Assembly: GCA_016806715.1 (NCBI GenBank) | Contig: CP060531.1 | Location: 977,966-1,041,965 of the forward strand | DNA: 64,000 nt | Reading direction: 5' to 3' | DNA from: Thermoplasmatales archaeon | GTDB taxonomy: Archaea > Thermoplasmatota > Thermoplasmata > Thermoplasmatales > Thermoplasmataceae | Shown here: positions 46,670 through 61,197 of the stretch, piece after piece | Position numbering within the stretch: position 1 is the first letter of the stretch | Layout: each line of letters begins with the position of its first letter | Program-made: the position numbers and the translations under genes | The notes under the pieces: generated by a model | What the model was told of the DNA's origin: nothing | The model's database searches: none | Seen by the model: the letters and a program-made list of their open reading frames with translations, nothing else

Positions 46670-49600
46670 CTTTCAATCCTATCAAGGTTCTATTTTAACT
46701 TCACTAAGTCAGAAATCTACTCTATAAGAGATTGACTTTCAATCCTATCAAGGTTAGATTCTAATCACACAACACAGGGGGGCAAGTATTAGCAAATACC
46801 CAGCCTTTCAATCCTATCAAGGTTAGATTCTAATATTATTGGTGTCCTCGTATGCCTGCCACATCTGCATCTTTCAATCCTATCAAGGTTAGATTCTAAT
46901 TACAACGGGACGTACGTATTAATTCTTGTTGCATTACTTTCAATCCTATCAAGGTTAGATTCTAATGGGATCGGTGTATAACAACCTCACCTTTGCGATC
47001 TATCTTTCAATCCTATCAAGGTTAGATTCTAATGTTGCTTATGTAGGCTGTTAGGGGGATAAGACCGTTCTTTCAATCCTATCAAGGTTAGATTCTAATC
47101 TGGCCATCCTTGCGGTATACTTCCTTGGATACCTCTTTCAATCCTATCAAGGTTAGATTCTAATGACTGAGAGAAATCCCTGAGACAGAACATATAAAAC
47201 TTTCAATCCTATCAAGGTTAGATTCTAATGGGCTAGCTCTATCCTAGCTTGGCTAAACGTCTGCTCCTTTCAATCCTATCAAGGTTAGATTCTAATACCG
47301 GATGGCCGGTACGTTCCGGTGGACGTATCCCTTTTTCAATCCTATCAAGGTTAGATTCTAATCAGCTTTTACATATCCTGAATTATCAACAGTCTTCTTT
47401 CAATCCTATCAAGGTTAGATTCTAATTGAGTGACGAAGTTTCCACTCAAAAAAGGCATGAAACTTTCAATCCTATCAAGGTTAGATTCTAATGATGATAA
47501 GTTATACCTCTATACTTAATGTCTTTAGCTTTCAATCCTATCAAGGTTAGATTCTAATGTCTCAATAATAGGCTCAAACACCGTGACCCATTACCTTTCA
47601 ATCCTATCAAGGTTAGATTCTAATGAAAAGATGTTTGACAATATCAGGTCTTACAATCTCCTTTCAATCCTATCAAGGTTAGATTCTAATTAGACCTGTG
47701 CGTGGTTTAGGAACGCAAGGCTGGATAAAAATAGAATTCTTTCAATCCTATCAAGGTTAGATTCTAATTGAATAGACCGAGGAACCGGCATATTTGTTAT
47801 TCTGCTTTCAATCCTATCAAGGTCAGATTCTAATTCCCTGGGGTTATATGCATGTGGGATCTTTACATTATCTTTCAATCCTATCAAGGTTAGATTCTAA
47901 TCCAAAAGGTCGAGCAAATCCCGAAAATTATCAACCTCTTTCAATCCTATCAAGGTTAGATTCTAATGAGTGATGTTGCTCCTAGTATGCTGAGCAATTT
48001 CGGCTTTCAATCCTATCAAGGTTAGATTCTAATGAACAGATACAGGGGATAAGACCATGGCATTATTACTTTCAATCCTATCAAGGTTAGATTCTAATTG
48101 GGATCGCCTGTGCCGTAGATTCCGTTAGGTTTTCACTTTCAATCCTATCAAGGTTAGATTCTAATGAGAGGCGAAACAATGACAAAATGCGGGGCAGGAT
48201 ACTTTCAATCCTATCAAGGTTAGATTCTAATGATACCTTATCCCTCATTCCCAACCTCGACCAATATCTTTCAATCCTATCAAGGTTAGATTCTAATACC
48301 GGATGGCCGGTACGTTCCGGTGGACGTATCCCTTTTTCAATCCTATCAAGGTTAGATTCTAATCAAAGCAGGTTAAGGCATACAACTTGCCGCCCATACC
48401 ACTTTCAATCCTATCAAGGTTAGATTCTAATGAGAAGAATCCCCTTACTCTGGATAACAATCGCCTGCTTTCAATCCTATCAAGGTTAGATTCTAATTAT
48501 CCAAGGATTTAGCAATAAACCACGCACAGCTGAACTTTCAATCCTATCAAGGTTAGATTCTAATAAGTTCAAGGATAACCCCGGCAACCGAAGATGATAC
48601 TTTCAATCCTATCAAGGTTAGATTCTAATGATCGTGGCTTACATCGAAACGCCGGACGGGATATTCTTTCAATCCTATCAAGGTTAGATTCTAATATATG
48701 CCGGAAATTCGGCTATGTTGTATTCTTTACACTTTCAATCCTATCAAGGTTAGATTCTAATGACGGAGCAGTATATGAGAATGAACCTGTCACTCCTCTT
48801 TCAATCCTATCAAGGTTAGATTCTAATGACGGAGCAGTATATGAGAATGAACCTGTCACTCCTCTTTCAATCCTATCAAGGTTAGATTCTAATATAGCAA
48901 TAACACTCCTCGCAAATGCGCCAGCAGGCTTTCAATCCTATCAAGGTTAGATTCTAATGAATTGTGTCGTGTTGGAGCTGCTCAAATACGACCTCTTTCA
49001 ATCCTATCAAGGTTAGATTCTAATATAACATAGGCAGGGGCATCTCGAGTCGCCCGTGCACTTTCAATCCTATCAAGGTTAGATTCTAATCCCAGACCAT
49101 GTTATACACCCAGTGTTTTATCCTCCACTTTCAATCCTATCAAGGTTAGATTCTAATTAAGCTCGTCACGTGGTAAGTTTCTACCATGTATGACTTTCAA
49201 TCCTATCAAGGTTAGATTCTAATAAGTATCTTGAGGATCTATACGGAAAGGAAGCCTTCTTTCAATCCTATCAAGGTTAGATTCTAATGATAGCATATCC
49301 CCCATTCCCTAGCTCTACAAACATCTTTCAATCCTATCAAGGTTAGATTCTAATCACAGATTGGGACGGTCTCAGTGTCACCCGCAGTCCTCTTTCAATC
49401 CTATCAAGGTTAGATTCTAATTATGACACTCACACAGGCCAAAACTGCCTTCCGTACTTTCAATCCTATCAAGGTTAGATTCTAATGAGACAGCACAGCA
49501 CACAGGGGGGCAGGTATTAAGCCTTTCAATCCTATCAAGGTTAGATTCTAATACAATGTTCTTTTTTTCCTCTGCGTCGGCCTGTATCCTTTCAATCCTA

Positions 49601-51398
49601 TCAAGGTTAGATTCTAATATCGGGGAGGATGTCTTCAGGCTTGACAAGGATGGCCTTTCAATCCTATCAAGGTTAGATTCTAATCTGGCATAAGATAGGC
49701 GTTCTCCCTATTGTCGCTCGACTTTCAATCCTATCAAGGTTAGATTCTAATACCAAGAAGGGCAAGCCCGAATACACGCAGGTTCCTCTTTCAATCCTAT
49801 CAAGGTTAGATTCTAATGCCAAGGATCACAAGTGCCTATGTTTTATGATACTTCTTTCAATCCTATCAAGGTTAGATTCTAATATAATAGTCCTAGCAGT
49901 TGTATCTTACGTATTAGTCCTTTCAATCCTATCAAGGTTAGATTCTAATATATCCCCATGGTATTTCGCCGTCCTTGCGCATTTGCTTTCAATCCTATCA
50001 AGGTTAGATTCTAATTATCCCCCAAATTAGCATGCCGTGCTTTGCATGGATTACTTTCAATCCTATCAAGGTTAGATTCTAATGCGGACATATTTCGCTT
50101 CGAGTACGGCCGCATACCTCTTTCAATCCTATCAAGGTTAGATTCTAATACAGCGCCTCCTGAAGGACAATACACAATCAGCATCTTTCAATCCTATCAA
50201 GGTTAGATTCTAATAAGTTCCCGCATAAACAAAATTTCTGCCTCATTATACTTTCAATCCTATCAAGGTTAGATTCTAATCGGAAAGAGGTCTCCGATCT
50301 CGTCCACGACTAGATGCTTTCAATCCTATCAAGGTTAGATTCTAATATGCCAAAGCCTTTCATTGAGGAGCACAAGCTCTGGCTTTCAATCCTATCAAGG
50401 TTAGATTCTAATTTTGATAAAGGCAATTAATAATCGTGATGATTTTACTTTCAATCCTATCAAGGTTAGATTCTAATTGTCAATGGTTAAGTGTAATGTA
50501 GTGAAGGATAATGACTTTCAATCCTATCAAGGTTAGATTCTAATCTTAACATCGCCAACTGGAAGATCGACAGCCTCTTCTTTCAATCCTATCAAGGTTA
50601 GATTCTAATCACCTGGATTCTTCGAAACGTAACTGAAGCTATGCGCTTTCAATCCTATCAAGGTTAGATTCTAATGAAGAGTCCGGCGATTCCCGGGGAG
50701 CATTCAACTTCTTTCAATCCTATCAAGGTTAGATTCTAATGTGCACATGAATAGTGGGTCACGTGGATTGCGGTTGCTTTCAATCCTATCAAGGTTAGAT
50801 TCTAATGCATTGTAAAGCAGCACCCTAGTGTCCTCATCGAGCTTTCAATCCTATCAAGGTTAGATTCTAATCGGGGGCGGAAGAGTCGGCACCGGGGCTT
50901 CCTTTTACTTTCAATCCTATCAAGGTTAGATTCTAATTGGGAAGCTGGGAGGTGTGGAAGGAGTCCACATCTGCTTTCAATCCTATCAAGGTTAGATTCT
51001 AATACAAGCCAGTTATTTGCCTCTTCTATGCCACACTGGCTTTCAATCCTATCAAGGTTAGATTCTAATTACAGGAATTTTGTCTCTTCGAGTTCCCTCT
51101 CCGACTTTCAATCCTATCAAGGTTAGATTCTAATACGAACTGATACTTCTTCCTGGAATACGACAGCAAACTTTCAATCCTATCAAGGTTAGATTCTAAT
51201 TAGGATCAGGCTTAGGGGGTCTCTTTGTTTCAGGCCTTTCAATCCTATCAAGGTTAGATTCTAATTCAAACTGGGACTATCGACCTGTATTCAACATCTT
51301 TCTTTCAATCCTATCAAGGTTAGATTCTAATATATGGATACGGACGGGTTGTTGTTGATTGTAATAGACTTTCAATCCTATCAAGGTTAGATTCTAAT
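46670..51398 (-). CRISPR. CRISPR array, 72 repeats and 71 spacers, type I-D
   Basis: I count 72 copies of a 30-bp repeat. On the minus strand it begins ATTAGAATCTAACC and ends GATAGGATTGAAAG, so the 8-nt crRNA handle would be ATTGAAAG. Spacers are 34-39 nt, most often 36, except one of 48 nt at 47691-47738. The copy at 46670-46699 is changed in the ten bases that end it on the plus strand (CTATTTTAAC), marking the old trailer end. The leader is therefore at the right, next to cas2, and transcription runs right to left. One repeat (47805-47834) has a single substitution, and the copies at 47333 and 48334 have T instead of C at the plus-strand first base. Two spacers occur twice. Confidence 0.98.
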
Positions 51399-51818: not shown

Positions 51819-52079
51819 TCAAATGATGTTACTGAATTCTTTGGAAAGTCCTAAGGATATTCTCTTAGCAAGGCTCTCATCCCTTAGAGTAAAGATCTGG
51901 ATGGAGTCCTCTTCAGCTTTCATCTTACTTTTCAATTTTGAGATCAATATGTCTAAGTTGGCCTTTGTGATATCACCTACAAATACAGAATTCTGTAGCC
52001 ATTTCAAGTACGGAAGGCAGGTCTTCCGAATGACTTGTACTCTCTTTTCGTTTATATCATACGAAAGAATTACCCACAA
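51819..52079 (-). CDS. cas2: CRISPR-associated endonuclease Cas2
   Basis: The 86-residue adaptor of the Cas1-Cas2 spacer integration complex. It starts WVILSYDINEKRVQVIRK, with the conserved Asp of the first strand (YDI), and has the ferredoxin-like pattern with LKWLQNSVFVGDIT near residue 30. I choose TTG 52079, 4 bp after the cas1 stop with GGTG upstream. An upstream in-frame ATG at 52121 would add 14 residues before the first strand, which does not fit the family. It is the last gene of the operon and faces the array leader. Confidence 0.93.
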   Translation of the reverse strand: MWVILSYDINEKRVQVIRKTCLPYLKWLQNSVFVGDITKANLDILISKLKSKMKAEEDSIQIFTLRDESLAKRISLGLSKEFSNII

Positions 52080-52083
52080 ATTT

Positions 52084-53043
52084 TCACACCCGAGATACGT
52101 AAGCTTTGTATTCCGAGTCACCCAATATATGTCGTTCTAGTTTATATAATTCTAATCTAATGAGTCTTCGATTCGAAACTTTCCTATTGAGCGATGAAAC
52201 ATACGTAGTTTCTTGCATTTTCTTGTCAAACTCCTGAAGCACTTTCCTTTTCCCCCTTTCGTTCATAAATACGCCCCCATCATTCACAAAGTCGCCTTCG
52301 CCCATAATTCCAAGGTTTATCAACTTAAGAATTGTTCTATCACAAAAAATAGGCCTGAAAATTTCCGCTATATCAAGAGCTAAGCTTGATCTTCTTTCCG
52401 ACAGTTCATGCAGATAACTCACCGAAGGAGAGAGATGAGTGCCAAATATTTCGGCGCCTACAACGCCGTATAGAACTGAGTATAGGTAACTCATCATTGA
52501 ATTGCTATAATTTCCTGGCGGGCGCCGAGTTCTAGAATTTATTTTGAATTTGCCTAGTAATTTTGTATCAAGAATTTCTAGATACCTGATGTGGATATTC
52601 CCTTCAATACCCATTAGTTCTTGTATTGAATTGGTAGAATTTATCTGTTTCTCCATTAGCGGGGATTTCTCTGTGCCCAATCTCGCTGTCACCTTGCGCA
52701 TATTTTTTGCCGCTCCGATTACAATTTTTTTCGCAATATACATGCGCTTTCCATAATCTACTTGGTGTTCTACTTGCTTCGCGAGTACAATTCCACTCTG
52801 TAGGTAATTTTCAGGTATAAGACTAGTTATATACCAGCCTCTTTCAGAAAAGAGAATCGCAGGGATATTTTTTTCAGATAATAGGGAAAGAGCTGGCGTA
52901 GTGAATGTTACGTTCCCAAAAATCATTAGTGTGTCCACAGCCTCCAACGGTATCTCAAAATTCTCTGTCTCATTCTTCAAAATCAGCGAATTAGACGATT
53001 TAGAAAGTGTCCCAGACTTTAAAAGATAATAGGTTTCCCCCAT
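52084..53043 (-). CDS. cas1: CRISPR-associated integrase Cas1
   Basis: A 319-residue spacer integrase. The start at ATG 53043 (MGETYYLLKSGTLSKSS) is preceded by GGTAGGT and follows the cas4 stop by 5 bp; the frame extends further upstream but overlaps cas4. Catalytic positions are recognisable: Glu in ELMGIEGNIHIRYLE near residue 130, His in THLSPSVSYLHELSERRSS near 205, and the acidic pair in LALDIAEIFRPIFCDR near 220. The position between cas4 and cas2 is typical. Confidence 0.95.
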   Translation of the reverse strand: MGETYYLLKSGTLSKSSNSLILKNETENFEIPLEAVDTLMIFGNVTFTTPALSLLSEKNIPAILFSERGWYITSLIPENYLQSGIVLAKQVEHQVDYGKRMYIAKKIVIGAAKNMRKVTARLGTEKSPLMEKQINSTNSIQELMGIEGNIHIRYLEILDTKLLGKFKINSRTRRPPGNYSNSMMSYLYSVLYGVVGAEIFGTHLSPSVSYLHELSERRSSLALDIAEIFRPIFCDRTILKLINLGIMGEGDFVNDGGVFMNERGKRKVLQEFDKKMQETTYVSSLNRKVSNRRLIRLELYKLERHILGDSEYKAYVSRV

Positions 53044-53048
53044 TTTAC

Positions 53049-53567
53049 CTACCCCCAGCAGAATTCTACATAGCTGCACCCATGAGAGCAAAAATAGTTG
53101 CGCTTTCCGATTGGTATACCCGATGTCATGAGTGAATCAATTTCTTGGTATTTTATCTTGACCCGTTCTACAAACTCATTCGGATAATCCAATTTTCTAA
53201 TCTTCCTGGCACCTAGTAGATGGATTTCACCGTGATCTATAGAAAATCCTTTGATACTCGCTATCAACATGTAATGTGTCAATTGAAGAGCATCGGCTTC
53301 AATAGTTTTGCGTCCCCTTTTAAATTCGTGGACAATCAGTTTCCCATTTGGAAGAAACTGAACGTAATCTAATTTGTTCCTCCCAATGCTAACTTGCGAA
53401 TACCCAAACTTTCTTTGTATTTCATTTGCATATGCACCTAACTTTACAAAATCAGTACCGTCTGTAATATATATTTCATGTAAAGATAACCAGGCCCTTC
53501 TGAGGCATATGGAAACATAGCTGATATCTGTCCCACGGTAGGACTCTGGCGCTTTCATTTCGTACAC
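53049..53567 (-). CDS. cas4: CRISPR-associated exonuclease Cas4
   Basis: A 172-residue RecB-family nuclease that trims prespacers and helps choose PAM-proximal ends. The iron-sulfur cluster cysteines are visible: one near residue 22 (ICLRRAWLSLHE) and three at the C-terminus (CSHGCSYVEFC). RecB motifs include GRNKLDYVQFLPNGKLIVHEFKRGR, with catalytic Asp and E-x-K. It overlaps the end of cas3' by 13 bp and precedes cas1 by 5 bp, forming the adaptation module cas4-cas1-cas2. Confidence 0.94.
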   Translation of the reverse strand: MYEMKAPESYRGTDISYVSICLRRAWLSLHEIYITDGTDFVKLGAYANEIQRKFGYSQVSIGRNKLDYVQFLPNGKLIVHEFKRGRKTIEADALQLTHYMLIASIKGFSIDHGEIHLLGARKIRKLDYPNEFVERVKIKYQEIDSLMTSGIPIGKRNYFCSHGCSYVEFCWG

Positions 53568-55399
53568 AACACCAAACGTTCCGGACCAGCAGTGGATAAG
53601 ATGCAGTTCCCTAAAGCCTCAAGAACGTCCTTTATTTCGTCCGGTAAGCCGAAATATTGCTTGTAAAATATCTTGAATCTGTCAATTATTTCTTTCCTTG
53701 ATTTGAAGTATATATCTCCATACCTCATTTTCACCCGTGAAGCAAAAGGTAACCCAGTCACGTATACACTGAAATTAAAATCTGGCCGATCTCGGAAATC
53801 CTTAACAATTATCATGCCATCCTTCTCATCTACAATTTCTTTGTTTTTCCTTAACCAGAGTTCTGAGTATTCAGTCATAAACCCACCGGTTTCCATGAAA
53901 TCCTCACTTGTGTCAAGAACTTGAATTTCATTCTGTGACGGGATAAATTTGTAAATAGTCTCTTTGTAATTTTTCCACCACTCTGAAATTTCCTTGATTT
54001 CGACAAGGATGCGAGAACTTCCGAGCGCAAATTGCTTATCGCCAAGAATCATATCTAAATGTTTCGTGCTAAAACAAGCTGCAAGCAAACTTGAATTCAC
54101 ACTTCCTTTCTTCAGGTTCTCGAGTACTGCTTCCTTTGCGTTTGCCGTAAGTTTATCAATAATAAACCACAGATATGTCCCCAGGGATTTCATCCATGGA
54201 GGGCGTTCATATCCGAACCCGAAATCACTTATAAAATCAAACAAATCGTCTATTTTCTCAACCTTTTCTGGAAAATTACTGACGTTCGTCTTTATAGCTA
54301 TATAGAGTTCGCTTACAACTGACGAACCTCTGCCAATTCTTCCGGCCCTTTGGATGAAGCTTTCCAGAGAATAACCAGGTTCTATCAGAAAATTTGTATA
54401 TTCACACGGCGGGTTTATACCCTGTTCAACCACATTTGACCCGATTATAATCCGTTTGCCGATCATGCCGTTCTTAACCATTGCATACGTCTCGTATGAT
54501 GGATCGTGGTATGCAGATATCAACATTATATTGGATTGGGCTATGCGTGGCACGAACTCTTGGTTTGCTTCATGTATATTCCGGATTGAATCAAGTATAA
54601 GGAACCATTTACCTGATTCAAAAATCTTTGGATTACTCCGAATAAAATCTATTGCAGTTCCTTTGTATATGTGTATATTTAGTTTTCCCTGCAACACTTC
54701 TGACCCCTCACTCCTCTGTTGAGTTCTTTCTACCGTTATTTTACAGACCTGATCCTCACCATACATTTCGATAAGAAGTTGATTGAGGTAGTTTGGAAGT
54801 GTTGCAGATGCAAACATCAGCTTAACATCATTTCGAAGCAACAAAGTCGAAGCTAGGATCATCGATGTTTGATCTCTTGAGTAAATGTGAAACTCATCAA
54901 AAATAACTGTGGACAGATTATTCCTCATCAATTCACTGAGCATGTCTTCCCTGCTCTGTTGGCTATAGTGGTTTGTGAGCAAATTATAAAATACGGTAGG
55001 ATTTGTTAAGATGAATTTCTTATTCCTCAGGATAAGTCCGATCGCCTTTCTTAGAGTAAAGTCGTGGAAACCCATACTCTTTTTTTCCCGCATTACACGA
55101 TTTATTGAAGATGCATTCAGTAAAGCAACATCATTTACGCCAGTTTTGTTGAAAGTATGAAGTGTTTCATTTGAGAGAAGATTATTCGGAAAAACGATTA
55201 GAGTGGTTTTACTGCCATTTCCCATCATACTGAACCCTAGTGTCTTTCCAGCGCCGGTTGGCGCTGATAGAACAGCGACTCTCTTCTCAGAATTTTCTGC
55301 GAATCGGACCATTTCAAGCTGGAACTGCCTTATGCCACCAATAGAATCTATGTATGAAGGCGGTATTTCATAAGTTATCACTTTGATATCAGCCCCCAT
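53555..55399 (-). CDS. cas3': Cas3' helicase (type I-D, no HD domain)
   Basis: A 614-residue superfamily 2 helicase that unwinds target DNA after Cascade recruitment. Motif I is VLSAPTGAGKTLGF near residue 44, motif II VIFDEFHIYSRDQ near 168, motif III SATLPNYL near 205 and motif VI QRAGRIGRGSS near 352. No HD nuclease domain is attached at either end. In type I-D that domain is on Cas10d, where one is indeed found here. It overlaps csc1 by 11 bp and cas4 by 13 bp. Confidence 0.93.
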   Translation of the reverse strand: MGADIKVITYEIPPSYIDSIGGIRQFQLEMVRFAENSEKRVAVLSAPTGAGKTLGFSMMGNGSKTTLIVFPNNLLSNETLHTFNKTGVNDVALLNASSINRVMREKKSMGFHDFTLRKAIGLILRNKKFILTNPTVFYNLLTNHYSQQSREDMLSELMRNNLSTVIFDEFHIYSRDQTSMILASTLLLRNDVKLMFASATLPNYLNQLLIEMYGEDQVCKITVERTQQRSEGSEVLQGKLNIHIYKGTAIDFIRSNPKIFESGKWFLILDSIRNIHEANQEFVPRIAQSNIMLISAYHDPSYETYAMVKNGMIGKRIIIGSNVVEQGINPPCEYTNFLIEPGYSLESFIQRAGRIGRGSSVVSELYIAIKTNVSNFPEKVEKIDDLFDFISDFGFGYERPPWMKSLGTYLWFIIDKLTANAKEAVLENLKKGSVNSSLLAACFSTKHLDMILGDKQFALGSSRILVEIKEISEWWKNYKETIYKFIPSQNEIQVLDTSEDFMETGGFMTEYSELWLRKNKEIVDEKDGMIIVKDFRDRPDFNFSVYVTGLPFASRVKMRYGDIYFKSRKEIIDRFKIFYKQYFGLPDEIKDVLEALGNCILSTAGPERLVLCTK

Positions 55400-56054
55400 A
55401 AATCTTTAGGAGGTCTTGAATGGAAAGCATACCTAGAAGGAAGTATTGAAGGACGCTATGACTAGCGTATTCATAATTAAACTTCGGAATACTTTTCCCC
55501 ATTATATTCTGAATAGTGTAGGCGTTAATTACAGCCCTGAATTCACTGCCATGATAATCTTGCAATTTTAGTAAGCCAGTTTTGTTGTTGCCAACTCTCA
55601 AGACTCTTGGTAACTCAAAGTCATCCTCTGTAGTGATTAGATAAGTATAGAAAATGTTTCCTGGTTTAATTGGTTGTTGAAAGTAGAAATTTTTATACAT
55701 TTTCGACCCTTCCCCGAAACCTGGATAAGAACTGGTTCCATTGTAATCGATGCCTTGCATTGTGTTTCTAACCATATTTTTCATGTAAATTGTGTCTCTT
55801 TCACCCCCAAAAGCCATTTTTTCATTTATAGCTACTGTAAACCAAAACGGAAATTCTAAGAGTTCCTCATATGTTGGCTGGAATTTAGTTGGGTAGAAAT
55901 AGTCCATTTTTCCCAATTGGTGAAGTGCGGCATATTTTAGTGCAATATCTCCGATGAAGTCTGACGTTCTCATTCCCCCAGCAGCTGGAATATAGTAGTA
56001 GTTGACCGGGCTGATTGTCTCAATTCTTATTGGTTTTAACCGAAGATTTTTCAT
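55389..56054 (-). CDS. csc1: Cas5-family protein Csc1 (type I-D)
   Basis: A Cas5-like RAMP protein of about 221 residues from the ATG 56054 (MKNLRLKPIRIETISP); the frame is open to 56075, deeper inside csc2. The first strand is followed by SPVNYYYIPAAGG, and the later segment FELPRVLRVGNNKTGLLKL is the Csc1-type glycine-rich loop. It would cap the crRNA 5' handle in the I-D Cascade and help read the PAM. It overlaps csc2 by about 35 bp and cas3' by 11 bp. The assignment to Csc1 rather than another Cas5 rests on gene order and the loop pattern. Confidence 0.85.
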   Translation of the reverse strand: MKNLRLKPIRIETISPVNYYYIPAAGGMRTSDFIGDIALKYAALHQLGKMDYFYPTKFQPTYEELLEFPFWFTVAINEKMAFGGERDTIYMKNMVRNTMQGIDYNGTSSYPGFGEGSKMYKNFYFQQPIKPGNIFYTYLITTEDDFELPRVLRVGNNKTGLLKLQDYHGSEFRAVINAYTIQNIMGKSIPKFNYEYASHSVLQYFLLGMLSIQDLLKIYGG

Positions 56055-57018
56055 TCCAAAACTCACTCCAGTCACTATCCATCTTATTTACAAGTACTAA
56101 GCCCATAGATCGAAGCTGATCCGGAGATTGCCTGAGCTCATTAACTTCGTTGATCAGGGACCTCAGTTCCTCTTTATTTAGGAGGTTCTTTCCATACGCG
56201 TTGTGCATGTCGTCGGCGACCATCTTTTGTGGATCATAGGAACCGGAATTCCATGCTTTCATTATAGTAGAATAGGAACTCACAGAAGTTTCTTGCTTTG
56301 AAAACCCAATTGCTACGATACTGTTCATCATGTTATCGCCAAGGATGGCTGTCCTTGCTCCGTATCTAGTTGTTCCGTTTATAGCCATCAACGCAAGCAA
56401 AAGCATCTCTCTTGAACAATTTTCCATTGAGATATATCGTATGAGTTTTACTCCAGGTCTCACATACGGCACGTTATAGAAAGCGTTGGATTTAGGAGTT
56501 CCATTTTCCTCGTGCAGTATGGTCCCTTCTTCGGAAAGAGAATTATGCAAATATCTGACTGTAATTTTTGCTAGAGACTCATAGCTATATGACCAGTCGT
56601 AGAACATCCTGGAGGCCATACCAGCGGCTTCCGTTCCAGTACCAGTGCTAGAATCTCCGAATATTAAGCTTGAGGGGTTCTTCAGCAATTTTTTCTTTAC
56701 AACCATGTTCCGGCTATATTCTGCAGGTATTATTCCACCCACCTTCCTTAGCTCAGATAACAGGTAAGATCTCTCTGCGCCTCTCCACTTTTGTGCGGGA
56801 ACTACGAGTCTCTCAGAGCCCTGAAAATTCTCGCTTGTAAGCTCGGTTGCTTCGTTATTTCTGTTTATAAAGAAACCAACCGTCTCTGAAACTACACCTA
56901 TTTTTAGAAATATGCCATAGTTCTTCTTTAGGTCAATATCTTCGAGTTTCAACAATAGCTTCTCTTTTTCCAATCTTTCAAAAATTTCCGACATTCTACT
57001 TTTCATCTCCTTTTCCAC
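56020..57018 (-). CDS. csc2: Cas7-family backbone protein Csc2 (type I-D)
   Basis: A 332-residue Cas7-like protein that would coat the crRNA as the Cascade backbone. Csc2-like features are the segment VPAQKWRGAERSYLLSELRKVGGI near residue 92, NPSSLIFGDSSTGTGTEAAG near 133 and NGTTRYGARTAILGDNM near 215, the last resembling the conserved N-Y/R-GAR motif of Csc2. It overlaps cas10d by 23 bp and csc1 by about 35 bp, so the effector genes are translationally coupled. Confidence 0.87.
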   Translation of the reverse strand: MEKEMKSRMSEIFERLEKEKLLLKLEDIDLKKNYGIFLKIGVVSETVGFFINRNNEATELTSENFQGSERLVVPAQKWRGAERSYLLSELRKVGGIIPAEYSRNMVVKKKLLKNPSSLIFGDSSTGTGTEAAGMASRMFYDWSYSYESLAKITVRYLHNSLSEEGTILHEENGTPKSNAFYNVPYVRPGVKLIRYISMENCSREMLLLALMAINGTTRYGARTAILGDNMMNSIVAIGFSKQETSVSSYSTIMKAWNSGSYDPQKMVADDMHNAYGKNLLNKEELRSLINEVNELRQSPDQLRSMGLVLVNKMDSDWSEFWNEKSSVKTNKN

Positions 57019-59710
57019 TTCTCATATATTCAAATTCAAAAGCATTGATTAGGTAAGACTTCATAGAACCAGACGGCACTCTCGAGTCAAAATCCTCTTT
57101 TAGAAGATAGATCAATTTATCTGCAAACTCTGCGATGTCCGTGTCTGTAGGCATCCAAGTCCTGCTCTTGTCTCTCTGCAGAGTCTTTAGAATGACCCCT
57201 TCAACGAATACTTTGTATTCTGACAAGTCTCTATCTTCCCCAGCTGTCAGAGAAACCTTTGCCTTCTCTATGGCTTCTAGGCTGTCTCTTAACATCCAAG
57301 TTCTGTAATTTCCACTCATATTCCACGTTGGTCTTACCATTTTAGCAGCTGATTTTGCCAGTTCTGTGATACTTTTCATCTTCTTTCCCCCATCCTTATC
57401 CCATTCATAAGCCAGTTTTCTTATATTTTCGATCTTCTCAGAAAACTGTTTCCCAAAGCCAGTCATCTTACTGTCTTTTTTATCGAAAACTAGTTTATGA
57501 ACATGATAAAATAATGACATAGGCTGCTGTATATAGTTGCCAATTACATTTGCAGTCTCTTTGAAATCTATCTTGCTTATTGATCCGTTCACGACTACAT
57601 TAAATGTGGTGATCGTATCCAGTACACCCTCTATTTGATTGCACCTGATTCTTTCCCATCCCATGGCTGTACAGATGGAATTCCCTACTTCTATCCTGAC
57701 GGCTTCATACTGGTCTTCAAAGAATGGCGAGTTGGAAAAAGAAAGTCTGATCAGCATTTTTGTTCTCCTGTAAATATTCAAAGCTTGGTACGTGTTCTTC
57801 AAGATTTCTTCTTCTGTCTTAAGATGCTTAACTGAGTAGAAGTATGTGCTATCAAGCCTTACTTCTCTCTTAAAACGATTAATTGCCCGCAACGAAAGCT
57901 TCAGATTGTTTACTTCTGAGAGTTCTTCTTCACGTGAGTACGCTAGATGAGTCATATAGTCAGACATATCAATAAAGGGGATTGCTCCAGGGAATGACAT
58001 AAACATCAAGCCCTCATCTTCGCTCCCGGATCGTGGTACTAAATTACGCCTTAGTGCAAACTCGAATTTTGATATTTGGTCTACTTTTCCGTTTGAAATT
58101 CCTGAAGTCGGGAGCCGATTATTAAACGTCTGAGTATTTATGCCAAAGAGATTCTCGCGGGTAGCCTTTTCAGATGCTGGGTATGCATTAACCATTGACA
58201 TCTTGAACTTGTTGGGGACTCTAGGTAGTACCAGTGAATCGATGTTACGAACTACAATCTTAGAGAGAATATCATTGAAGTCCACGAATTTTTGTTCTTT
58301 GTTTAAATCCGATAAAATATCACTTAGAAGAACATCCCAATCCACTTCTTTGGTTTGAATGGCAAAAGGGATCAATAGCCCAGAGTTCCTTTCTATTTTT
58401 CCCAAGAGACCTTTTAAAATTCCATCTTTATATTTTTCTAATGTTGATTCAAGGAAGGATCTAAGTTCTTTTGCATTTTGAGTATTGAGGTCTGTCTTAA
58501 GCTGTACATATCTTGCCATGAATACTTTCAGCCTTTCCTCAATTCCCTTTTCCTCATCCTGAATTTCATATATTTCCAAACCGTCTCGAAGCGAAGTTCT
58601 CGACTTTTCATTTATCTTCTTGAAATTTAAGGAAAAAGTAATTGTTGCAGTCTTTACTGCATCACTATATGCATACGCTGCATCCCGATTCTCGGGAGTA
58701 ATTTCTATATCTTCCATCCATATGCATTTTTTGAAACCGTCTTCTTTCACATAAGTTATAATTGAATCTTTTGTGTGCGCAACGATCCCTGAAGCTGAGT
58801 TGATCACGCTCCTATCATTGAATGTTAACAAATTTTCCGGTTGTAATATCTTATTTACTATGTCTTCAAAGGCCTTTGTCAAGCCAGTCTGAATAACCGA
58901 ATCGTCCCCGTCAGATACATAGAAAATTGCTCTATTTGTACTCCAGAGATAAAATCCTCCGGAAAGCTCAATCACTTGCAAACACGCTTTTCTAGCTACG
59001 TCTTCGCAAGCATATAGAGAAGTTGCTCCAAATAAAATTTTTTTCAGGAACCTGCCTGGTACAACGGGTTCGCTTCCCCAGTCGATTGAGTCCTCAATAG
59101 ACTTCATATTTCCGGATACTTCTCTATTGAATCTACTGGACAACTGATCCGCGACTCTGGAGAAGTTTGATTCAAAAAACAAGCCCGACCTTTGGTTCTT
59201 ATTTTTGATTATGTTATACGTAGTTCCCAATTCCGTCGAGAAGACAACCTGATACACCTCATCATTTGTAAGATTAAGTTCGTTTCTTAACTCCCTAAAA
59301 TATTTATCCACAAGTTCGAAAAGGGTACTCCTATCTTTCATACTGTAGTCAACGCCGGTTATCTTGTTATAATCATGAAAGAGAAAGCAGAAGATCGATC
59401 TCTTGATAGACAATATTTCTTCCTGTAATTGTCTGTCACTTACTGGCTCTGATATGTACTTATAGTCCAGTACTTTAAGCGCCATCAAGGTACCAGAAAA
59501 AATGTGGGCTAGGTAATCCATGTCCCTGTATTTTTCAAATTTCTTGTTATCATTTCCGCCCTTAGCGCAGCGGTTCCACTCACTTGAAAGCCAAATTTTA
59601 GAGAAAATATTATTTACCGCCCAATCCAAAACTTCCTCAAGGAAGGGTGCCCGAAAATCCATTACACTACGGATTGTTACATGATCCTTGTTGGATGGGG
59701 GTTCTGACAT
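56996..59710 (-). CDS. cas10d: Cas10d/Csc3 large subunit with N-terminal HD nuclease
   Basis: The 904-residue large subunit of the type I-D effector. The N-terminal HD domain has His69 (DYLAHIFSG) and the H112-D113 pair (FCFLFHDYNKITG), consistent with the DNA-cleaving nuclease that in I-D sits here instead of on Cas3. A segment IFYVSDGDDSVIQ at 262-273 resembles the strand-turn-strand carrying GGDD in cyclase Cas10 proteins but lacks the first Gly pair, so cyclase activity is doubtful. The remaining 600 residues are alpha-rich. It starts directly after cas6 (no gap), with GGGAGG inside the cas6 3' end as ribosome-binding site. Confidence 0.9.
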   Translation of the reverse strand: MSEPPSNKDHVTIRSVMDFRAPFLEEVLDWAVNNIFSKIWLSSEWNRCAKGGNDNKKFEKYRDMDYLAHIFSGTLMALKVLDYKYISEPVSDRQLQEEILSIKRSIFCFLFHDYNKITGVDYSMKDRSTLFELVDKYFRELRNELNLTNDEVYQVVFSTELGTTYNIIKNKNQRSGLFFESNFSRVADQLSSRFNREVSGNMKSIEDSIDWGSEPVVPGRFLKKILFGATSLYACEDVARKACLQVIELSGGFYLWSTNRAIFYVSDGDDSVIQTGLTKAFEDIVNKILQPENLLTFNDRSVINSASGIVAHTKDSIITYVKEDGFKKCIWMEDIEITPENRDAAYAYSDAVKTATITFSLNFKKINEKSRTSLRDGLEIYEIQDEEKGIEERLKVFMARYVQLKTDLNTQNAKELRSFLESTLEKYKDGILKGLLGKIERNSGLLIPFAIQTKEVDWDVLLSDILSDLNKEQKFVDFNDILSKIVVRNIDSLVLPRVPNKFKMSMVNAYPASEKATRENLFGINTQTFNNRLPTSGISNGKVDQISKFEFALRRNLVPRSGSEDEGLMFMSFPGAIPFIDMSDYMTHLAYSREEELSEVNNLKLSLRAINRFKREVRLDSTYFYSVKHLKTEEEILKNTYQALNIYRRTKMLIRLSFSNSPFFEDQYEAVRIEVGNSICTAMGWERIRCNQIEGVLDTITTFNVVVNGSISKIDFKETANVIGNYIQQPMSLFYHVHKLVFDKKDSKMTGFGKQFSEKIENIRKLAYEWDKDGGKKMKSITELAKSAAKMVRPTWNMSGNYRTWMLRDSLEAIEKAKVSLTAGEDRDLSEYKVFVEGVILKTLQRDKSRTWMPTDTDIAEFADKLIYLLKEDFDSRVPSGSMKSYLINAFEFEYMRSGKGDEK

Positions 59711-60424
59711 CTATATTGCCTCCCAGCATCCCAGTCCTAGCCCTGTTTTAGAACCAAGCCCTCTGTGATAAATCACTTCCAGAACTCCTGGGTCTCCAGA
59801 AATATTTCCTGTAATATCATATCCTCTCGTCATAGATTCTTTAGCAGGTCCACTGGATATCCTTATCGTCTTTGAATGGGCTTCTGTCACCTTTATGAAA
59901 AGGTCACTCAGATTGCTTTCGGCTATTCCGAACTGATTTTTCAGAGTCCATTTCATTACTTGGTTAAGGTTTTCTTCTATTTCTCCATGTTTCGCAACAA
60001 ACATTTTTTTGTTCTGAAAATTCCTGATCAGTACAGGTGAAAGTGTTTTGAATCCTACGTTCCCCCTACCCCTCAATCTTCCATCAGAATCGGTTACACT
60101 CTTTACAATGTACCGTGCGCTACCTATCCTCAGATAGGGGTCTATTGAAAGGCCTAACCTGAAATAGGATCCCATCCTCTTATCAATTGATCGCAAGATA
60201 AAGAATCCTCTTGAAATATCTAACCCGTTGTTACGGTGGCTTGCGCTCCTCGCTATAATATTGCTAATTGTGTGAATTCCTGGTTGGTTCCATTTATGCA
60301 GTGTTTTAATCTCCTCTTGGTAGAGCTTTAACTTGGAATATACAGATATTGCAAGATAATAGTTATATTCAAATGGAATGGAATTTTGATCGGAGCGTTC
60401 TATAGAAATTATAGAAGTAAGCAT
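59711..60424 (-). CDS. cas6: CRISPR RNA endonuclease Cas6
   Basis: Cuts the precursor within each repeat to leave the 8-nt handle. From the ATG 60424 it has 237 residues: a first ferredoxin-like strand (MLTSIISIERSDQNS, then PFEYNYYLAISVYSKL), and the C-terminal glycine-rich loop GLGSKTGLGLGCWEAI diagnostic of Cas6. A His in NNGLDISRG or HKWNQPGIH may be catalytic, but this cannot be told. A GTG at 60454 would add ten residues, but the TATA box TTAAATA at 60451-60445 lies about 24 bp before 60424 and supports the shorter form. It is the first gene of the operon. Confidence 0.9.
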   Translation of the reverse strand: MLTSIISIERSDQNSIPFEYNYYLAISVYSKLKLYQEEIKTLHKWNQPGIHTISNIIARSASHRNNGLDISRGFFILRSIDKRMGSYFRLGLSIDPYLRIGSARYIVKSVTDSDGRLRGRGNVGFKTLSPVLIRNFQNKKMFVAKHGEIEENLNQVMKWTLKNQFGIAESNLSDLFIKVTEAHSKTIRISSGPAKESMTRGYDITGNISGDPGVLEVIYHRGLGSKTGLGLGCWEAI

Positions 60425-60456
60425 AAGAATATAAACCGGGTGCGTATTTAACACTT
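60425..60456. promoter_or_regulatory. Interlocked divergent promoters of cas operon and csa3
   Basis: Only 32 bp separate the cas6 ATG (60424, minus) from the csa3 GTG (60457, plus). The plus-strand TATA box AATATAAAC (60428-60436) is about 25 bp before csa3. The minus-strand box TTAAATA (60451-60445) is about 24 bp before cas6. Each promoter's TATA-to-start interval contains the other's TATA box, so the two initiation complexes must compete. Confidence 0.75.
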
Positions 60457-61197
60457 GTGACAGACAACGACGAAAAATATTCTTCGCTGAATAGTGAAAA
60501 AAACAACATAACCCTTGTCACTTTCATTGGATTCCAGGAACATCTTGTACTAAATTTCTTAAGAACTTATCTTAGAAATGGGGTGAAAGAAGTTATGTTA
60601 TTTTCGTCTATTCCGCAAAGAAATGCAACGGAAGGGAAATCTACCATTGACCGTGAAATACGTGAAAAAGCGATCAAACTTATCAGAGATTCCTCGGGTG
60701 AAGACGTCACTATTATAGTTAAAGAAATAGAAAATATATGGGACTTTCAAGATTATTATTTCCAGCTCTCGCGAAAAGCTGTAGAGGATGCGATAATAAA
60801 CCTAAGTGCTGGCCCAGCAGTGTTTTCGGCGGCAGGAATGATTTGGGCTTTAGAGCATGGATACAGGGTTAGCTACAGTGTAGAGTACCATGATGATGGA
60901 AAACTGGTGTCTTCGGTTTTCAGCTTACTCGATCTAAGGCCATATATTAATTCAGTCTTTTCTACGGACAATGTTGACAAAATGATCCTTAGTGCTTTGA
61001 AAAAGGGGAAATCCGATACTTTGCAGATAAATAGGTATATAAATGATATAACCGACTACAGGATATCGCTCAGAACCGTAGAAATACACTTAGGGAAGCT
61101 GAACAAATTGGGTATCATAGACATAACTAAAGGAAGAGTAAACAAGTTAACCTTTAGCCAGAAATGGAGCAAAATTGGGACTCCAGATAGAAAATAG
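60457..61197 (+). CDS. csa3: CARF-domain winged-helix regulator (Csa3-like)
   Basis: A 246-residue protein. The N-terminal half is a Rossmann-like CARF domain: ITLVTFIGFQEHLVLNFLR begins it and NLSAGPAVFSAAGMIWAL near residue 117 is the conserved ligand-binding motif region. The C-terminal 80 residues form a winged helix (ILSALKKGKSDTLQINRYI; ISLRTVEIHLGKLNKLGII). Csa3 proteins sense cyclic oligonucleotides or other ligands and control CRISPR adaptation genes, best known from type I-A loci of Sulfolobales. Here it diverges from a type I-D operon across a 32-bp interlocked promoter. T-rich sequence (TTTAATTTTTTG) just after the stop may terminate it. Confidence 0.88.
   Translation: MTDNDEKYSSLNSEKNNITLVTFIGFQEHLVLNFLRTYLRNGVKEVMLFSSIPQRNATEGKSTIDREIREKAIKLIRDSSGEDVTIIVKEIENIWDFQDYYFQLSRKAVEDAIINLSAGPAVFSAAGMIWALEHGYRVSYSVEYHDDGKLVSSVFSLLDLRPYINSVFSTDNVDKMILSALKKGKSDTLQINRYINDITDYRISLRTVEIHLGKLNKLGIIDITKGRVNKLTFSQKWSKIGTPDRK

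Follow-up and report, generated by a model that had tools for sequence, protein, structure and literature searches.

A candidate operator inside a csa3-like regulator gene at interlocked divergent promoters of a type I-D CRISPR locus in Thermoplasmatales

Csa3 proteins are already known to regulate cas genes, and a regulator and its target transcribed divergently from overlapping promoters have also been described (PMC3729527). In Sulfolobus islandicus, the gene encoding the CARF-wHTH protein Csa3a lies on the opposite strand beside the csa1-cas1-cas2-cas4 operon that it controls, Csa3a activates csa1, and the cas core promoter is preceded by an imperfect palindrome, with a footprint from -81 to -42 of csa1 (PMC4333418). 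The locus analyzed here resembles this system in its gene layout and its palindrome, but Csa3a serves type I-A adaptation genes and has a different site sequence, and neither interlocked promoters nor a site inside the csa3 coding sequence is described for it in the passages of that paper that were considered. In Methanothermobacter thermautotrophicus, msvR and its target operon fpaA are expressed from divergent overlapping promoters, and at one promoter the MsvR boxes overlap the start site, at the other the BRE/TATA, which is counted as a likeness; however, MsvR is a redox V4R regulator not related to CRISPR, and its sites occur in the promoters, outside the regulator coding sequence (PMC3729527). 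Overlap of regulator and operon core promoters of the msvR/fpaA kind is also found here (32-bp gap, two TATA signals near -29, 11 loci), so that the claim of a first-pass annotation of this DNA, that no locus with this geometry had been described, was too strong.

Other systems are more distant. The haloarchaeal gvpA/gvpD promoters are also divergent, share activator DNA and depend on the distance between UAS and BRE, but their start sites are 108 bp apart, are not interlocked and yield leader-containing transcripts (PMC4390858). In Pyrococcus furiosus, bidirectional BRE-TATA-BRE promoters direct transcription both ways from starts separated by tens of bp (49 bp in the example tested), with one shared TATA that gives rise to antisense RNA (PMC6640164), whereas here there are two boxes, each serving a protein-coding gene, and starts 33 bp apart; a single TATA for both starts at about 50 bp is not what this locus displays. 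Also, a 2023 review presents Sll7009 of Synechocystis as a local regulator of a type I-D locus, although it is a WYL-wHTH rather than a CARF protein and is reported as a negative regulator; the same review lists as open how the I-D regulator exerts its control and what signal it senses (PMC10212523). Compared with these systems, what appears to be new is the type I-D combination of interlocked leaderless promoters with a candidate operator located in the regulator coding sequence at a fixed distance from the cas promoter.

The window, a stretch of 64,000 nucleotides, derives from a genome of 1.96 Mb in a single contig, the relatives of which appear to be Thermoplasmatales, acid-loving archaea. 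The features relevant to the analysis are the following:

46671 to 51397, minus strand: CRISPR array, repeat CTTTCAATCCTATCAAGGTTAGATTCTAAT (plus strand reading), leader on the cas2 side
51819 to 59710, minus strand: remaining operon, with cas10d, csc2, csc1, cas3', cas4, cas1 (I-B-like) and cas2
59711 to 60424, minus strand: cas6, ATG start at 60424 (TIGR01877 and PF01881)
60425 to 60456, no strand: 32-bp spacer between the start codons, with both core promoters
60428 to 60437, plus strand: TATA-like box of csa3, best 8-mers at -29 and -27
60443 to 60451, minus strand: TATA-like box of cas6, best 8-mers at -27 and -26
60457 to 61197, plus strand: csa3-like CARF-wHTH gene, GTG start, 246 aa (ORF, PADLOC and AF2 model)
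60471 to 60486, no strand: candidate operator palindrome CGAA-N8-TTCG, 16 bp, at +15 to +30 of csa3 and -47 to -62 of cas6

Starting from ATG 60424, the minus strand operon reads cas6-cas10d-csc2-csc1-cas3'-cas4-cas1-cas2, and the leader stands between it and the CRISPR array, whose distal end is a degenerate repeat at 46671. Presence of cas10d, csc1, csc2, cas6 and a separate cas3' helicase is that expected of subtype I-D, the subtype previously proposed for the operon, and is backed by a Cas10_Id match of 2.6e-78 (PADLOC) and by the csc1, csc2 and cas3' profiles, with TIGR03157, TIGR03159, TIGR03158 and TIGR01877 all above cut-off. The cas1 gene (52084-53049) is best matched by the I-B model (TIGR03641, 6e-102, vs 7e-54 for the I-D Cas1d model), which points to a mixed adaptation module in this I-D locus. 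Within the array, an exact 66-bp spacer-repeat unit is present in 2.5 copies at 48732-48893 with 100% match, representing a duplicated spacer.

The width of the csa3/cas6 spacer depends on the start codons. While GTG 60457 is the sole ATG, GTG or TTG in frame nearby for csa3, cas6 has two candidate starts, GTG 60454 and ATG 60424. In an alignment, 10 orthologues begin where the latter does (MLTSIISIERS.. vs MKSAIIKIEKS..), which makes it the start of cas6, the GTG used in the ORF list being 10 codons too long. The gap of 32 bp, as given in the first-pass annotation, is therefore correct. The boxes named there are also in the sequence: AATATAAAC at 60428-60436, and TTAAATA as the complement of 60445-60451. 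A TATA matrix was obtained by fitting a motif by EM to a 464-kb sample of this genome, from the seed TTTATAAA, yielding TTWATAT, the first base of which peaks at -31 to -27 of start codons in that sample; this supports leaderless initiation for many transcripts in the genome. By the same matrix both boxes of the window are weak, the csa3 box being equalled by 10% of random sites and the cas6 box by 4%, and jointly they reach a P of about 0.06 in a comparison with shuffled spacers. Taken by itself, the sequence of the window would be marginal evidence for the geometry. A single shared bidirectional TATA was excluded, given the two separate boxes at 60428-60437 and 60443-60451 and starts 33 bp apart.

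Comparison with relatives gives a clearer picture. In 11 orthologous loci, all from one order and two families, the csa3/cas6 gaps are 32, 36, 37, 40, 46, 34, 36, 43, 44, 35 and 38 bp, so that the spacing, whose comparison in related genomes had been proposed as a check, is conserved. The mean box score across these loci is maximal at -29 on both sides, in support of interlocked divergent promoters, and the summed TATA score is 75.4, compared to 32.4 +/- 8.9 in dinucleotide-shuffled spacers (0/2000 as high). Among 66 divergent pairs sampled in the genome, 1-4 (depending on the choice of start) have a gap not exceeding 46 bp, and the majority are about 80 bp or more apart; in P. furiosus the median distance between head-to-head genes is 117 bp (PMC6640164). 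The interlocked geometry is real and unusual, and comparison of the predicted core promoters establishes both their overlap and its conservation.

Such conservation is what would be expected if interference between the core promoters were by itself sufficient to set the csa3/cas ratio, with the palindrome being no operator: a gap of 32-46 bp is found in 11/11 loci and both TATA signals are kept, also in G060, a member of another family that retains the interlocked promoters and lacks the palindrome. The closely spaced divergent pair occurs in 11 of the 13 genomes of the order with cas10d. One of the relatives, G012, matches Ferroplasma acidiphilum Y^T in where its cas island lies and in the order of its cas genes, as deduced from PMC5473848. 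However, G071 and G097, the remaining two, have a different I-D lineage, in which a divergent CARF-wHTH gene is located about 105-111 bp from cas6 (loci L109, 5066-5178, and L110, 8977-9089, respectively; same family), indicating that the divergent pair is common, that it does not need the overlap and that the overlap is specific to one lineage. The G071 spacer holds the palindrome TGCAACGTTGCA, a half-site of which occurs at a different position in G097. Searches of three further genomes of the genus (G001-G003, two of them assemblies less than 90% complete) recovered no csa3-like gene and no relative of cas6, suggesting an uneven distribution of the locus within the genus, where it is probably mobile or has been lost.

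The product of the divergent gene had been identified as a CARF-wHTH protein, and both profile and structural comparisons agree with this. PADLOC assigns it to CARF3 (6e-15) and Csa3 (1.5e-5), and an AlphaFold2 model built from the 11 orthologues (mean pLDDT 83) has as its best Foldseek matches among solved structures the S. solfataricus Csa3 entries 2wte (E 1.7e-7) and 6wxq (2.8e-7), representing the apo form and the form with cA4. The N-terminal CARF Rossmann domain and C-terminal winged HTH of Csa3 are both present. Sequence identity to Csa3 is about 15% and no Pfam or NCBIfam model reaches threshold on the protein, and for these reasons it is referred to as Csa3-like. The proposed cA4-binding motif 2 of Csa3 is small-small/hydrophobic-Gly-hydrophobic-Arg (PMC8844856). 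In the alignment, the Arg is absent from 11/11 regulator proteins, the corresponding stretch being SAGPA here and (S/T)(A/S)GPx in the other orthologues, so the ligand may be different from cA4, or there may be none. A search of the whole genome for a type III Cas10 palm (palm-2) domain gave no match, and this search revealed no evident producer of cyclic oligoadenylate that could serve the CARF domain.

Overlooked in the first-pass annotation, the palindrome CGAAAAATATTCTTCG falls within codons 5-10 of csa3. The pattern CGAA-N8-TTCG occurs in the first 36 nt of the gene in 8/11 loci, versus 0.065 expected from the encoded peptide and the codon usage, the expectation being derived by resampling synonymous codons according to the usage of each genome. 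Taking the loci as independent, P is about 4e-17, and after collapsing three closer pairs of loci it is 2e-7 to 3e-10, values that are not those of a blind test, as the palindrome was discovered in the same loci. This codon-based specific test was used because testing for palindromicity in general, with synonymous choice taken as given, yielded just P 0.009. The best competing combination of 4-mer palindrome and spacing occurs in 5 loci in the same stretch, and in no more than 4 in later csa3 windows. In G086 and G073 the related form GAAGAA-N5-TTCTTC takes the place of CGAA-N8-TTCG. Ancestry does not explain the palindrome, since synonymous sites elsewhere in csa3 are saturated (1347 identical codons at identical residues in the remainder of the gene vs 1294 expected from codon usage).

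A conserved N-terminal peptide of the regulator, ExxSS, could in principle account for the shared codons with no DNA site involved, and E6 is indeed the same in every aligned protein and S9/S10 in nearly all. This is very improbable, as judged from codon choice and spacing. The Ser codon at the end of the palindrome is TCG in 8 loci, whereas TCG makes up 3-22% of Ser codons, and in G031 and G080 the SS pair is shifted by one codon while the spacing of the DNA pattern is unchanged. Owing to this one-codon offset between peptide and DNA pattern in two loci, protein-aligned codon identity in the motif is raised moderately (59% vs 41%). Also, the N-terminal tail is of low confidence and disordered in the AF2 model and varies in length among orthologues. 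Formation of an RNA hairpin in the csa3 message was rejected, given that the segment folds no better than shuffles in 5/6 loci and weakly better in the sixth. The variable, low-confidence tail and the lack of an RNA fold signal favor a DNA element, and the codon comparisons demonstrate, at the level of sequence, a constraint acting on the DNA of the palindrome.

A scan of the genome allowing up to 1 mismatch recovered no further copy besides 60471-60486, and sites with 2 mismatches look like background; on these grounds a wider regulon was rejected. The Csa3a motif published in PMC4333418, TTCNTAACTAAANANGGNNNGAAA, shows no resemblance to the palindrome.

The position of the palindrome relative to the two genes is informative. 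Its distance to the cas6 start is 46-52 bp across the 8 loci (sd 2.2), while its offset from the csa3 start varies from 5 to 14 nt (a 9-nt shift) and the spacer from 32 to 46 bp, the two variations compensating each other. A permutation test gives P 0.007 for the constancy of the site-cas6 distance, and 0.03 when five lineages are considered, suggesting that the palindrome is tied to the cas promoter. Both this fixed distance and the DNA-level conservation of CGAA-N8-TTCG are left unexplained by promoter interference, which makes interference alone an improbable account. Overlap by itself gives only competition and no regulated switch; exclusion had previously been read as a switch between surveillance and immunity, yet the conserved palindrome is the likelier control element.

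The preferred reading, to which a probability of roughly 0.6 is assigned, is that of a divergent promoter under autoregulation: the Csa3-like protein would bind the palindrome, block csa3 and act on cas from an activator-like position. The two leaderless core promoters overlap in the 32-bp spacer (34-46 bp in relatives), and the csa3 and cas initiation complexes would compete for it, being presumably mutually exclusive. A dimer of the Csa3-like protein is the presumed binder of 60471-60486. Once bound, it would obstruct initiation or promoter escape at csa3, which would amount to autorepression, to judge from the position of the palindrome. The same dimer would lie 47-62 bp upstream of the cas start, beside the cas BRE/TATA, a location bound by archaeal activators, Csa3a among them; GvpE, for which UAS-BRE spacing is essential, also acts adjoining the BRE (PMC4390858). 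By analogy, binding would presumably help cas. The likely outcome would be that csa3 goes down and cas is freed from competition or actively recruited, so that most csa3 transcription would take place at low regulator occupancy. The initial suggestion that choosing csa3 blocks cas would hold just as competition at the moment of initiation, and the site position suggests that binding favors cas. Counting against the preferred reading are the weak TATA boxes of the window, the lack of the palindrome in G060 and its altered form in G086 and G073, the modest outcome of the general palindromicity test, the discovery of the pattern in the loci used to test it, and its dissimilarity to the Csa3a motif.

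Whether the net effect on cas would be positive is a closer call, with activation slightly preferred over repression. A serious, if unlikely, rival by comparison with known regulators is a circuit in which binding to the palindrome would shut csa3 and extend the repression to cas, either from upstream or through cooperative contacts, until a signal releases the regulator. Csa3b represses interference and adaptation genes of the Sulfolobus I-A system (PMC8844856, PMC7480081), Sll7009 represses a cyanobacterial I-D system (PMC10212523), and HFX_2341, a Csa3-like protein of haloarchaea, is reported as a repressor of cas genes. However, the palindrome leaves the cas TATA, BRE and start uncovered, and the repressive footprint of Csa3b on csa1 is far upstream, at -168 to -128 (PMC7480081), while Csa3 sites near -83 to -42 accompany activation.

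With regard to the autoregulated divergent promoter, the analysis makes the question of I-D control testable, offering a 16-bp candidate site, conserved in its placement with respect to csa3 and cas6, and 11 natural spacing variants. It also implies that the 5' codons of leaderless archaeal genes can conceal regulatory DNA, which searches of intergenic regions miss. More tentatively, a single operator in the first codons of a leaderless regulator gene, held at a constant distance from the facing CRISPR operon, together with interlocked promoters could constitute an exclusive switch, a possible but rather doubtful extension in which bound regulator would turn cas on and csa3 off, and its absence would leave csa3 on at the expense of cas. 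If true, this would represent a way of arranging control at CRISPR loci that has not been described, maintained through selection acting on synonymous codons.
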